This document shows positions 4,619 to 23,591 of a stretch of 33,525 nucleotides of DNA, one piece after another; the first letter of the stretch is position 1, and the number at the start of each line of letters is the position of its first letter. A model generated the notes under the pieces. That model saw only the letters and a program-made list of their open reading frames with translations, made no database searches and was not told the origin of the DNA. Where the stretch lies: NCBI RefSeq assembly GCF_024449025.1, contig NZ_JAHLKM010000028.1:1-33525 (forward strand). The letters run 5' to 3'. This DNA comes from Natronomonas aquatica (GTDB lineage: Archaea; Halobacteriota; Halobacteria; Halobacteriales; Haloarculaceae). Both the position numbers and the translations under genes were made by a program.

Positions 4619-4848
4619 GGTTTACAGGCGGTCGAGGCGAATGCCCCGATGCTTGCTCGTGGTCTTCAGGAGTTCGGTCTGGGAGGGGCCGAAGTGACGC
4701 CCGTGGGGACTGCGACCGCTGTGGGAACCGACGAAGACCGCCCTCCGTCGGTTCCTGCAAGTCGCGTCATCGAAACGGAAAGCCTCGGGGTCGTACGGAA
4801 ATCTTTGATTTCCGTGATGACGAGACGCTCTGCGTCTCGAACCACTTG
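4619..4848 (+). pseudogene. C-terminal remnant of an IS1341-type tnpB
   Basis: In the frame of 4649 the translation reads VEANAPMLARGLQEFGLG, then AEVTPVGTATAVGTD, then ASRVIETESLG. This follows the C terminus of haloarchaeal TnpB (IS891/IS1136/IS1341 type), where a D-x-N-A-A RuvC motif is followed by a GL-x-E-x-G helix and a tail like VTPVETAxPxDTxxxSAKRVVETGSP. Everything N-terminal to the last RuvC motif is missing, and the catalytic motif is altered. The tail is broken after ESLG by the hairpin cluster at 4784-4856. No tnpA or left end is visible, so it is a dead fragment. The rest of 4547-4919 holds only this remnant and the promoter region of the next gene. Confidence 0.65.
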
Positions 4849-4856
4849 ACCCCGAG
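4784..4856 (+). repeat. T-shaped nest of three perfect inverted repeats
   Basis: The outer arms of 9 bp (4784-4792 with 4848-4856) enclose two hairpins with three-base loops: 9-bp arms 4795-4803/4807-4815 around TTT, and 8-bp arms 4821-4828/4832-4839 around TCT. All three stems are perfect. As single-stranded DNA or RNA this would fold into a three-way junction. It interrupts the TnpB tail, and the inner hairpins have the same design as those in sufD and the histidine kinase. It could be a small palindromic insertion unit or an RNA-level terminator-like structure. Confidence 0.8.
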
Positions 4857-4919: not shown

Positions 4920-6599
4920 ATGGCGTCGAACGACGACAGCCAGGGGCCTCCGGAGATCCCATCGGAACTCCCGTTCGAGCTGCTCCTGGCCGAGGCCCCG
5001 TTCGGCGTGCTCGTCATCGATTCGACCAGTACGATACGGTACACGAACGAGGCACTGACTGACACGCTCGGGTACGAGCCCGCGGCGCTCGTCGGCGAGT
5101 CGCTGACGCGGCTGATCCCCAGCCGGCTGCAGTCCTCCCATCTCGAGGCGTTCGAGGCGTACTTGGAGAGCGGTCAGCGCCACCTCGATTGGGATCAAAT
5201 CGAGCTGTCGGCGGTCCACAGCGCGGGCCACGAGGTCCCGGTCGTCATCGCCATCCAGGAGACGCCGACCGAAGACAAAGACCTCTTTACCGGTATCGTC
5301 GTCGACGTCTCCGAGCAGTCCCGTCTCGAACGGGAACTCGAAGCGAACGTCGACGTTCTGCACGAACTCTACGTGATCGCCTCCGATTCGACGCTGTCGT
5401 TCGAACAGCGCCGACAGAGCGTCCTCGAACTCGGCTGTCGCTACCTAGATCTCCCCTACGGGTTCGTCACCGAGATCACGTCCGCCGAGCAGACGATCGT
5501 CGACGCCGTCGGCGACCACGAACTCCTCCAGTCCGGCGAGACGTGCCCGATCGAGGAATCGTACTGCCGGCGGACGATCGAGGGGGACGGGTTCCTCGCG
5601 GTCGCAAACGCCGTCGAGGAGGGCTGGGAGGAGGATCGGGCCTACGAGCGGTTCGGGCTGGGAAGCTATATCGGCGGCAAGCTCGTCGTCGACGGGGGAC
5701 TCTTCGGGACGCTCTGTTTCGCCTCGCACGACCCCCGCGGTCGGCCGTTCTCCGACAGCGAACGGACGTTCGTCGAACTGGCGAGCCGGTGGCTGGGGTA
5801 CGAGATTCAGCAGCGCCGCCAGCGTCGGCAGCTCGAACGGCAGAACGACCGGCTCGATCGGTTCGCGAGCCGGGCCTCCCACGACCTCCGGAACCCGCTT
5901 TCGGCCGCGAAGGGACGGCTCGAACTCGCCCGTGAGCGACACGAGGGCGACGAGGACATCGAGGCGGCCCTCGAGGCGATCGCCGACGCCGACGCCCGCA
6001 TCGACGAGACCCTCGAGTTCGCCCGGCTCGGCGGGGCCGTCACCGATCCACAGCCGGTCGCCCTCGCCGAGGCCGCCCGGGTCGCGTGGGAGCGGGCCGG
6101 CGAGGCGACGGCGACGATGACCGTCGAGGACGACATCGAGATCCGCGGGGACCGCGATCGGATCGAACGGCTCCTCGAGAACCTGTTTCGGAACAGCGTG
6201 GAGCATGGCTCCACGAGCAGTCGGACACAGTCCGACGACAGCGTCGAACACGGTTCGACGAGCAATCGGCCGCAGGCCGATGACAGCGTGGAGCACGGCT
6301 CCACAGGCAGTCCGACGGAGTCCGACGACGCCGTCGAACACGCCGGAACCGGTGTCACTGTCCGGCTCGGCGGGCTTTCGGACGGCACCGGCTTCTACGT
6401 CGCCGACGACGGCCCCGGCGTCCCCGAAGACGACCGCGAGACGGTTCTCGGATCCGGCTACACGACGAGCGAGGAGGGCAGCGGCTTCGGGCTGGCGATC
6501 GTCACGGAGATCGCGGCCGCCCATGGGTGGGACGTCCGGGTCATCGAATCCGCCGCGGGCGGCGCGCGTTTCGAGATCGTCGACGTGACCGTGTCGTAA
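4920..6599 (+). CDS. PAS-GAF sensor histidine kinase with tandem-repeat insert
   Basis: A 559-residue soluble histidine kinase with no membrane segment, so it senses a cytoplasmic signal. The PAS domain is at about 20-140 (FGVLVIDSTSTIRYTNEA), and the GAF domain at about 150-298 (YGFVTEI, CPIEESYCRRTIEGD, YIGGKLVVDGGLFGTLCF). The HisKA helix follows with the phosphoacceptor in ASHDLRNPL near residue 321. The HATPase_c domain has its N box ENLFRNSVEHG near 420, G1 VADDGPGVPE and G2 GSGFGLAIV. Between the N box and the next strand (VTVRLGG) lie about 45 extra residues made of a repeated unit DD[SA]VEHGST-x-x-P-x-[SA], a copy-like expansion of the N-box end. No receiver gene is adjacent. The insert lies in or next to the ATP lid region and may alter kinase activity. 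Confidence 0.92.
   Translation: MASNDDSQGPPEIPSELPFELLLAEAPFGVLVIDSTSTIRYTNEALTDTLGYEPAALVGESLTRLIPSRLQSSHLEAFEAYLESGQRHLDWDQIELSAVHSAGHEVPVVIAIQETPTEDKDLFTGIVVDVSEQSRLERELEANVDVLHELYVIASDSTLSFEQRRQSVLELGCRYLDLPYGFVTEITSAEQTIVDAVGDHELLQSGETCPIEESYCRRTIEGDGFLAVANAVEEGWEEDRAYERFGLGSYIGGKLVVDGGLFGTLCFASHDPRGRPFSDSERTFVELASRWLGYEIQQRRQRRQLERQNDRLDRFASRASHDLRNPLSAAKGRLELARERHEGDEDIEAALEAIADADARIDETLEFARLGGAVTDPQPVALAEAARVAWERAGEATATMTVEDDIEIRGDRDRIERLLENLFRNSVEHGSTSSRTQSDDSVEHGSTSNRPQADDSVEHGSTGSPTESDDAVEHAGTGVTVRLGGLSDGTGFYVADDGPGVPEDDRETVLGSGYTTSEEGSGFGLAIVTEIAAAHGWDVRVIESAAGGARFEIVDVTVS
6197..6342 (+). repeat. Tandem repeat of palindromic units inside the kinase N-box region
   Basis: About three copies of a roughly 48-bp unit, each containing two inverted repeats with three-base spacers. 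Perfect arms are at 6197-6204/6208-6215, 6220-6226/6230-6236, 6242-6249/6253-6260, 6265-6271/6275-6281 and 6288-6294/6298-6304. A sixth, at about 6311-6328, is imperfect. The arms differ in sequence between copies while staying self-complementary, so pairing rather than sequence is conserved. Each unit keeps the reading frame and re-encodes SVEHGST or a near version. Confidence 0.88.
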
Positions 6600-21674: not shown

Positions 21675-23591
21675 ATGTCCGAGGACAAAGGCGGCTTCGA
21701 GGACGTCCGCGAGAGCCTCGATGGGCATCCGATCCGGAGCCTGCTCGCCTACGCCCGGCCCTACTGGATCCGGCTGACCGCCGGCGTCTTCACCTCCTTC
21801 TGTACGCGGTTCGCCAGACTCGTTCCGCCTATCGTCGTCGCGACGGCGATCGACCGCGTGGTGTTACAGTCGGGCGAGCCCGGCCTCCTCTCCGAGGTCG
21901 GAGTCGCCCCCGGCGGCGAGATCACCGGCGAGGCCGCCCGTATCGCGCTCTTAGAACAGCTCGTCGTCATCGCGGTGCTGGCGTATCTCGTCCGGTCGGC
22001 GACCCGGTTCGCCTCCCGCTACCTGCTCCAGTCGACCGCCCAGAAAGTCCAGCGGGACCTCCGGAACGACACCTACGACCACCTCCAGCACCTCTCGATG
22101 GACTTTTTCGTCTCACATCAGACCGGCGGCATGATGTCGATCCTCAACAGCGACATCAACCGCCTGGAGCAGTTCCTCAACACCGAGTTCCGCCAGCTGA
22201 TCCGCGTCGTCGCGACGGTCGGCGGGATCTCGATCGTGCTGTGGACGTACTCGCCGAAACTCGCGCTCGTTGCCCTCGCGCCCGTCCCGGTCATCGGCCT
22301 CGCGAGCGGGCTCTTTCTCGACTGGATCGAACCGCGGTACAAATCCATCCGGGAGACGGTCGCCCGGCTGAACACGCGACTCGAGAACAACCTCGGCGGA
22401 ACGGCGGTCATCAAGACTTTCAACCGCCACGCCTTCGAGCGCGGCCGGGTCGCCGCCCAGAGCCGGACCTACCACGACGAGAAGGTGGCCGCGCTGCGCA
22501 TCCGCCGGGCGTTCTTCGCCTCGCTCCGGCTGACGACCGGCGTCGTCTTCGTCCTCGTCCTCTATATCGGCGGGTCGGACATCATCGCCGGCGATCCCGG
22601 CGCGCTGTCGGCGGGTGCCTTCGCGCTTTTCTTCCTGTATCTCCGGCGGCTGTACTCGCCGATGCGCCGGGTCGGGAAGTCGGCCAACAGGTACCAGCTC
22701 GCGAAATCGAGCGCCGAACGGGTGTTCGGCCTGCTCGGCAAGGAGCCGACCGTGACCGAACCGCCGGACTCCCACGAGCCCGAATCCGTGACCGGCGACG
22801 TCGCCTTCGAGGACGTGACGTTCGGGTACGGCGGCCGCGATCCCGTGATCCGGAACGTCTCCCTCGAGGTCCCGGCGGGAACGACGATCGGACTCGCGGG
22901 CCCGACCGGCGCGGGGAAATCGACGCTTCTGAAACTGCTGCCCCGGTTTCACGACGTCGATTCGGGGTCGGTCCGCGTCGACGGCGTCGACGTCCGCGAG
23001 TACGGCCTCCGGGCGCTCCGTGAGGAGATCGCGATCGTCGAACAGAACCCCTACCTGTTTTCGGGCACGGTCGCCGAAAACATCGCCTACGGCGACCGGG
23101 CGGTGCTGGACGCCGAGTGGGACGAGGGGACCAACGTGACCGAAACAGAAGGTCGCGATCGGATCGTCGAGGCCGCGAAGGCCGCCGAGGCCCACGAATT
23201 CATCCGGGAACTCCCGGAGGAATACGACACGACCGTCGGCGAACGGGGTGTCAAGCTCTCGGGCGGGCAACGACAGCGGCTCGCTATTGCGCGGGCGCTG
23301 CTCAACGACCCGTCCATCATCGTCTTCGACGAGGCGACCTCCGACGTGGACACCGAGACGGAGGAACTCATCCAGGAGAGCCTCGATCGACTCATCGAGG
23401 ACCGGACCGCCTTCGTCATCGCCCACCGGCTCTCGACGATCCAAGAGGCCGACCGCATCGTCGTCATGGAGGACGGTGAGATCACAGAATCGGGGACCCA
23501 CGAGGACCTGCTCGATCTCGGCGGCGTATACGCCACGCTCTGGCGGTCACAGGCCGATTCGGACCCCCAGGTCCGCGTCCTCGAGGACTGA
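21675..23591 (+). CDS. ABC exporter, fused membrane and ATPase domains
   Basis: A 638-residue half-transporter of the MsbA/multidrug type. Transmembrane domain about 25-350, six helices including ARLVPPIVVATAIDRVVL, VVIAVLAYLVRSATRF and GLASGLFLDWIEPRY. The ATPase domain is about 385-625: Walker A GPTGAGKST (about 412), Q loop IVEQNPYLFSG, signature LSGGQRQRLAIARAL (about 530), Walker B IIVFDEATSD and the switch His in VIAHRLSTI. It would act as a homodimer. Between the Q loop and the signature lies an unusual polar stretch (DAEWDEGTNVTETEGRD). Substrate unknown; lipid or drug export is typical. The MFS gene follows 76 bases on with its own promoter. Confidence 0.95.
   Translation: MSEDKGGFEDVRESLDGHPIRSLLAYARPYWIRLTAGVFTSFCTRFARLVPPIVVATAIDRVVLQSGEPGLLSEVGVAPGGEITGEAARIALLEQLVVIAVLAYLVRSATRFASRYLLQSTAQKVQRDLRNDTYDHLQHLSMDFFVSHQTGGMMSILNSDINRLEQFLNTEFRQLIRVVATVGGISIVLWTYSPKLALVALAPVPVIGLASGLFLDWIEPRYKSIRETVARLNTRLENNLGGTAVIKTFNRHAFERGRVAAQSRTYHDEKVAALRIRRAFFASLRLTTGVVFVLVLYIGGSDIIAGDPGALSAGAFALFFLYLRRLYSPMRRVGKSANRYQLAKSSAERVFGLLGKEPTVTEPPDSHEPESVTGDVAFEDVTFGYGGRDPVIRNVSLEVPAGTTIGLAGPTGAGKSTLLKLLPRFHDVDSGSVRVDGVDVREYGLRALREEIAIVEQNPYLFSGTVAENIAYGDRAVLDAEWDEGTNVTETEGRDRIVEAAKAAEAHEFIRELPEEYDTTVGERGVKLSGGQRQRLAIARALLNDPSIIVFDEATSDVDTETEELIQESLDRLIEDRTAFVIAHRLSTIQEADRIVVMEDGEITESGTHEDLLDLGGVYATLWRSQADSDPQVRVLED

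Follow-up and report, generated by a model that had tools for sequence, protein, structure and literature searches.

What are the three tandem 45-bp units that lie in frame (6198-6332) at the N box of a sensor histidine kinase (open reading frame 4920-6599) in the Natronomonas aquatica window, i.e., the whole 33,525-nt stretch of DNA analysed here, and by what route did they get there? The features concerned are collected in Table 1.

Table 1. Features of the kinase locus in the window
Feature	Position	Strand	Details and basis
Type D three-way-junction palindromic element: outer stem CTCGGGGTC/GACCCCGAG, HPa, TGATGA, HPb, AACCA	4784..4856	+	Sequence, fold, covariance model R2
Sensor histidine kinase, 559 aa, PAS-GAF-HisKA-HATPase_c	4920..6599	+	Translation; Pfam PAS_9, GAF, HisKA, HATPase_c
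N-box helix coding sequence (..RLLENLFRNS), 5' of insert	6165..6197	+	Codon -1 (S/A) moves together with the element
Unit 1 (VEHGSTSSRTQSDDS)	6198..6242	+	HP1 6198-6214 and HP2 6220-6236, both perfect 7-bp stems with 3-nt loops; covariance model 69.2 bits
Unit 2 (VEHGSTSNRPQADDS)	6243..6287	+	HP1 6243-6259 and HP2 6265-6281, both perfect; both arms unlike unit 1; 68.6 bits
Unit 3 (VEHGSTGSPTESDDA)	6288..6332	+	HP1 6288-6304 perfect; HP2 6310-6326 with one C.C mismatch; 60.8 bits
Native N-box end (VEHAG)	6333..6347	+	Matches VEHAG of the empty-site congener (L157)

The array was real: Tandem Repeats Finder gave a 45-bp unit in 3.3 copies at 6193-6342 with by far the top score of the window (174), and the open reading frame ran through it, in agreement with the tandem units of two palindromes each that had been reported in a preliminary description of this DNA. 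Each unit, hereafter type A, was laid out as HP1 (17 nt), a 5-nt spacer, HP2 (17 nt), and a 6-nt spacer. The hairpins of units 1, 2, and 3 read (i) GTGGAGC atg GCTCCAC, GTCGAAC acg GTTCGAC, and GTGGAGC acg GCTCCAC for HP1 and (ii) GTCGGAC aca GTCCGAC, ATCGGCC gca GGCCGAT, and GTCCGAC gga GTCCGAC for HP2; five of the six were perfect, the exception being HP2 of unit 3. The single-stranded DNA fold of 6180-6360 had z = -6.2, with 0/200 shuffles equally good, and hairpins with a stem of 7 and a loop of 3-4 numbered 22 over the whole window, compared to 8.8 after 3-mer shuffling. The sole match in an Rfam scan of the window was a tRNA gene (RF00005, 60.4 bits, at 2789-2861), with no structured RNA family at the array. 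The upstream palindrome CTGTTTCGGAACAG (N-box codons LFRNS) was dropped as a part of the element, because its two arms displayed no association in insert-bearing kinases (Fisher p = 0.58).

Type A units were gathered from haloarchaeal genomes, giving 149 distinct 45-nt units among the matches listed. HP1 was perfect in 125/149 of these and HP2 kept at least six of seven pairs in 139/149, while the synonymous-codon-shuffle means were 17 and about 17, respectively, in a control that recoded identical peptides with pooled codons and left relatedness in place; one unit per locus gave the same picture. An alignment of 60 unit sequences had 97.6% of its cells paired (84.4% when shuffled) and a covariation score of 0.359 (0.113 when shuffled; 0/500), which was destroyed by sliding the partner. 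The arms had thus changed together while pairing was kept during drift, as proposed earlier for this array, and this applied equally across the 149 units. The two variable pairs of HP1 connected third codon positions (Val-Ser and Glu-Gly) and were both synonymous, so protein selection cannot account for them; the matching of arms could reflect selection for a hairpin instead of templated correction.

Empty counterparts of the site were found in two gene families. Two congeners had orthologues of the window kinase (72% and 67% identical) that contained no insert, their sequences being RNAIEHC.. and RNAVEHAGED..; because these sites were empty, one of them with VEHAG, the native N-box end here was the last copy (VEHAG) with the SVEHGST copies added in front of it, which reverses the earlier reading of SVEHG as the normal end followed by copies. 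A Rieske-domain gene (L412-L432) was a second hot spot for kinase-type modules. In one genus, this gene was empty in 13/21 species (PCEDGVEAWINRC or a close form) and filled in 8/21, the inserts being kinase-type modules (A, B+A, or A+C) at the same codon. The empty Rieske locus L419 read GAGGACGGTGTCGA-AGCGTGG and differed from L412 by a clean 45 nt, the left border of the L412 insert being GACGGTGTCGA and its right border GACGGCGTCGA; the empty Rieske orthologues thus revealed a clean 45-nt insertion flanked by GACGGYGTCGA. The type A target resembled ACGSYGTCGA, with the motif on both sides of the insert, and occurred both in the kinase N box (..N-A-V-E-H-G) and in the Rieske protein (..D-G-V-E-A-W). 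HP1 of L412 was imperfect because its left arm was native (GTCGAG) and its right arm was of kinase type (GTTCCAC), and these mismatched arms suggest that the L412 insert is a recent arrival.

The covariance model found type A units in 107/116 haloarchaeal genomes (one genome per species). Among 59 matches fetched regardless of context, 58 lay at the N box of a histidine kinase, including a kinase of another class (L291), and one lay in frame in a Rieske protein; the search of haloarchaea suggested by the preliminary description thus recovered the same expansion widely. Type A was accordingly more restricted than a typical mobile element (58/59 sampled matches in one gene family), but its confinement to kinases was overturned by the Rieske-domain protein (Pfam PF00355) carrying it at L289/L412. 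A strict type A pattern was found in 0/164 genomes of the same phylum outside the order; viral carriage was rejected as a candidate, with 0 IMG/VR matches to a fixed-length type A pattern, and a plasmid search returned four haloarchaeal kinases and nothing new. The source genome had 40 HATPase_c genes, five of them with units; one congener with 39 HATPase_c genes had no unit by the covariance model, and several congeners carried other module types (covariance model plus protein search). Ns were seen within an assembled array at L210 (G112:C15, about 204 kb), and unit counts of draft genomes may therefore be wrong.

The kinase N-box slot also took type B (48 nt), C, E, and F modules, all of them hairpin-coded. 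The type C module (GSEDASEPSVADAPDDA; GGAAGCG agga CGCTTCC plus a second stem) was present in both kinases and the Rieske gene, with loci at L172, L178, L160, and L428-L431. More hairpin-coded modules (CGAGGGATC nnn GATCCCTCG and others) were seen at the kinase slot at L232, L234, and L102.

Type D was composed of a variable outer stem, an 11-bp hairpin, TGATGA, a 10-bp hairpin, and AACCA, its junction reading TGATGACGA (TCGTCATCA on the opposite strand). The window copy (R2 model match at 4791-4844, 45.3 bits; fold z -5.9) ended about 63 bp before the kinase start codon, with the core match ending 75 bp before it; a weak second match to the type D model (17 bits) was seen at 21807-21877. Type D was present in 111/116 haloarchaeal genomes, with up to 45 matches in a single genome, where some places were counted once for each strand, and it was often outside kinases with its hairpins kept there too. 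Its helices co-varied (92.4% paired; covariation 0.391 vs 0.131), and an Rfam scan of type D loci returned no family up to E 1. Type D was found in frame in an ornithine cyclodeaminase (TIGR00300) at L348 (G168:C40, about 298.2-298.3 kb), relatives of which at 75-86% identity had no type D. Copies inside kinases and the cyclodeaminase were 63 or 66 nt long (11/11 aligned copies), while 13/14 other aligned copies were 62 or 64 nt long. Within kinases, type D sat exactly between the arms of HP1, at its apex, and HP1 may thus possibly be what remains of the outer stem of a D-like element.

Units were shared within genomes more closely than between them. The best-unit identity over 62 within-genome kinase pairs had a median of 93% (80% between genomes), with only a small general rise of identity in the flanking codons of these pairs and the upstream edge of sharing at about codon -1 (per-codon resolution). 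Kinases only about 46% identical shared units as alike (0.88) as orthologues 85% identical (0.89), and permutation of genome labels over 15 paralogue pairs gave a maximum of 0.861 in 1000 trials vs 0.879 observed. In genome G274, one 45-mer was identical in two kinases and near-identical in an unrelated kinase class, the shared unit of the HDLRNP-type and HNLRN-type kinases differing by two compensated arm changes at most. Units so common to other kinases, together with their type in the unrelated Rieske protein, argue against the kinase having locally re-copied its own N box, the origin first suggested for the array.

Turnover was also evident among orthologues, where unit number ranged from 1 to 5. 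Kinases 93-97% identical upstream had 1, 1, and 4 units in one group and 1 vs 4-5 units overall, and a Halorubrum group of ten orthologues had 1-3 units; copy number, which the preliminary description had proposed to compare, thus differed between close relatives, the congeners being empty. An inverted hairpin loop is the trace left by strand switching or by exchange between inverted repeats, as known from quasi-palindrome mutation. The HP1 loop was inverted (VEHGST to VEPCST) in two independent arrays, G225 and G244 (L345 and L346), with a possible third inversion at L111, and HP2 loops occurred in both orientations (GCA 19/TGC 13 and TTC 13/GAA 11); the VEPCST loops are likely the footprint of hairpin strand switching.

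Judged from these sequence comparisons, the window array probably represents a palindromic element, mobile and protein-coding (type A, 45 nt = 15 codons), that is present here in three copies and was copied by hairpin-prone DNA synthesis. In two unrelated gene families, the site at a short motif either held the element in frame or was empty; paralogues shared the element in variable number, and its hairpins were kept. The copying route would be hairpin-prone DNA synthesis plus template switching, possibly enzyme-aided: a nascent strand would stall in a hairpin and then switch template, either (i) onto the opposite arm, leaving both arms matched or the loop inverted, or (ii) onto this short motif where it recurs in a different copy or gene, resulting in spread and tandem growth, and selection would then retain only in-frame, tolerated products. 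The N box would be favoured for two reasons: no other target recurs so often in the genome (about 40 HATPase_c genes here), and the N box leads into a surface loop that would tolerate a hydrophilic, disordered insert with little damage.

Movement by a dedicated enzyme, i.e., a hairpin-recognising single-strand transposase (Y1/RAYT-like) or an integrase targeting GTCGA-containing sites as for REP/REPIN, is the strongest alternative, though an unlikely one. It would fit the short defined target with flanking motif copies, the short-looped hairpins, and the placement of type D exactly at the HP1 apex, as bacterial REP dimers also lie inside target palindromes (PMC3733652), but the covariation of arms would then need another cause. 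Because type A was nearly universal (107/116), matching of presence/absence profiles cannot point to such an enzyme.

Ectopic gene conversion between kinase paralogues, combined with tandem slippage and acting on an element with no mobility of its own, is rather improbable as the full account. It could also produce the within-genome sharing, given units common to paralogues, N-box DNA conserved among them, and a variable tandem copy number; however, the flanks displayed no tract of extra identity, in one genome a near-identical unit was carried by kinases of two unrelated classes, and the modules in the Rieske protein, which has only about 11 nt in common with the kinases, are left unexplained by conversion between kinases.

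A selected protein feature, namely an acidic linker whose variable length tunes kinase activity or provides phase variation, appears a little less probable still. In an AlphaFold2 model built on a 34-sequence alignment, the insert (about residues 131-180 of the kinase core) was a loop with no secondary structure (pLDDT 51-61) running between the N-box helix (model residues 113-135) and the next strand (181-186), upstream of the G1 box, while the ATP lid was a separate segment after the G1 box. The AlphaFold check put forward earlier thus gave no folded domain and an insert that is likely disordered, though not proven so because the alignment was shallow, and the location at the ATP lid claimed with it had to be abandoned. 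An insert that is always in frame, copy number unlike between close relatives, and a predicted disordered loop adjoining the ATP-binding fold would suit a selected linker; against it stood synonymous covariation beyond protein selection, the same peptide type in the Rieske protein, many orthologues with no insert, and the placement of the insert elsewhere than at the ATP lid.

The non-Watson-Crick cells of 225 units were G.T in 27 and A.C in 44 cases (codon bias only partly controlled); as G.T, which is paired in mRNA, was no commoner than A.C, the constraint on the hairpins looks like one acting on DNA rather than on mRNA. A function of the hairpins in kinase mRNA (translation pausing, stability, or regulation) is the least probable reading, for although compensatory changes, synonymous ones included, are the usual mark of RNA structure, RNA-tolerated G.T was not in excess, orthologues freely gained, lost, and swapped units, type D hairpins were kept outside kinases too, and no Rfam match was obtained.

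The preferred reading of a mobile coding element was compared with known palindromic repeats. Rickettsia palindromic elements (RPEs), said to go back to Ogata (2000, 2002), and their Wolbachia relatives are reportedly short palindromes placed in frame in protein genes, tolerated in loops, and present also outside genes. Types A and D were like RPEs in being in-frame short palindromic insertions tolerated in loops, with type D apparently also outside genes, but differed from them in the archaeal host, a strong preference for one kind of site, units of 45/48 nt arrayed in tandem, and paired changes that preserve the hairpins; for RPEs, a loss of repeat identity over time has been described (PMC6649704). 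The haloarchaeal elements were hairpin-forming palindromes inserted in frame, had empty orthologues, and resided in unrelated genes (type A in several kinase classes and the Rieske gene; type D in kinases, ornithine cyclodeaminase, and elsewhere). This likeness concerns the working principle, and neither descent nor sequence homology is claimed.

REP/BIME and CGTC- or GTAG-tagged palindromes are dispersed hairpin repeats, some intragenic and some inside other palindromes (PMC3733652), and share these traits with the haloarchaeal elements; unlike them, type A was almost wholly coding and site-preferring, with 58/59 sampled matches in kinases instead of mostly extragenic dispersed copies. The text of that survey contained no word starting with 'halo'. 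PARCEL repeats, like type A, are tandem, palindromic, protein-coding, and spread within genomes, but they encode a 25-aa (75-nt) amphipathic domain in membrane or unknown proteins, with none in archaeal genomes (PMC2996958), while the units here were of 15/16 aa and hydrophilic, and the Pfam domains of the kinase were solely PAS, GAF, HisKA, and HATPase_c, with no PARCEL repeat (DUF285/TIGR02167 HMM). Nematomorpha mitochondria harbor perfect coding palindromes retained through change, for which template switching and conversion have been proposed (PMC6649704); these resemble the present hairpins in that retention, but they are long, scattered over conserved mitochondrial genes, and not described as mobile units with a target. 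No report of haloarchaeal coding palindromes was found in open-licence papers, including a census of archaeal two-component systems. As known coding palindromes of such kind come from bacteria and worm mitochondria, the archaeal family looks new.

A broader and more speculative proposal, less likely than not by a wide measure, is that haloarchaea carry a site-targeted hairpin-cassette system, in which modules A, B, C, D, and others would enter one short target common to a large paralogous family, would keep their exact structure through hairpin-templated synthesis or a dedicated hairpin enzyme, and would continuously remodel the kinase core loop. With the elements described here, coding palindromes, known from only a few lineages, would extend to archaea. 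Natural copies, with sites both filled and empty, are numerous within a single gene family and would make directly testable how small hairpin elements move and where matching arms come from (selection vs template switching). Length variation at the haloarchaeal N box would reflect mobile DNA, and not necessarily signalling adaptation.
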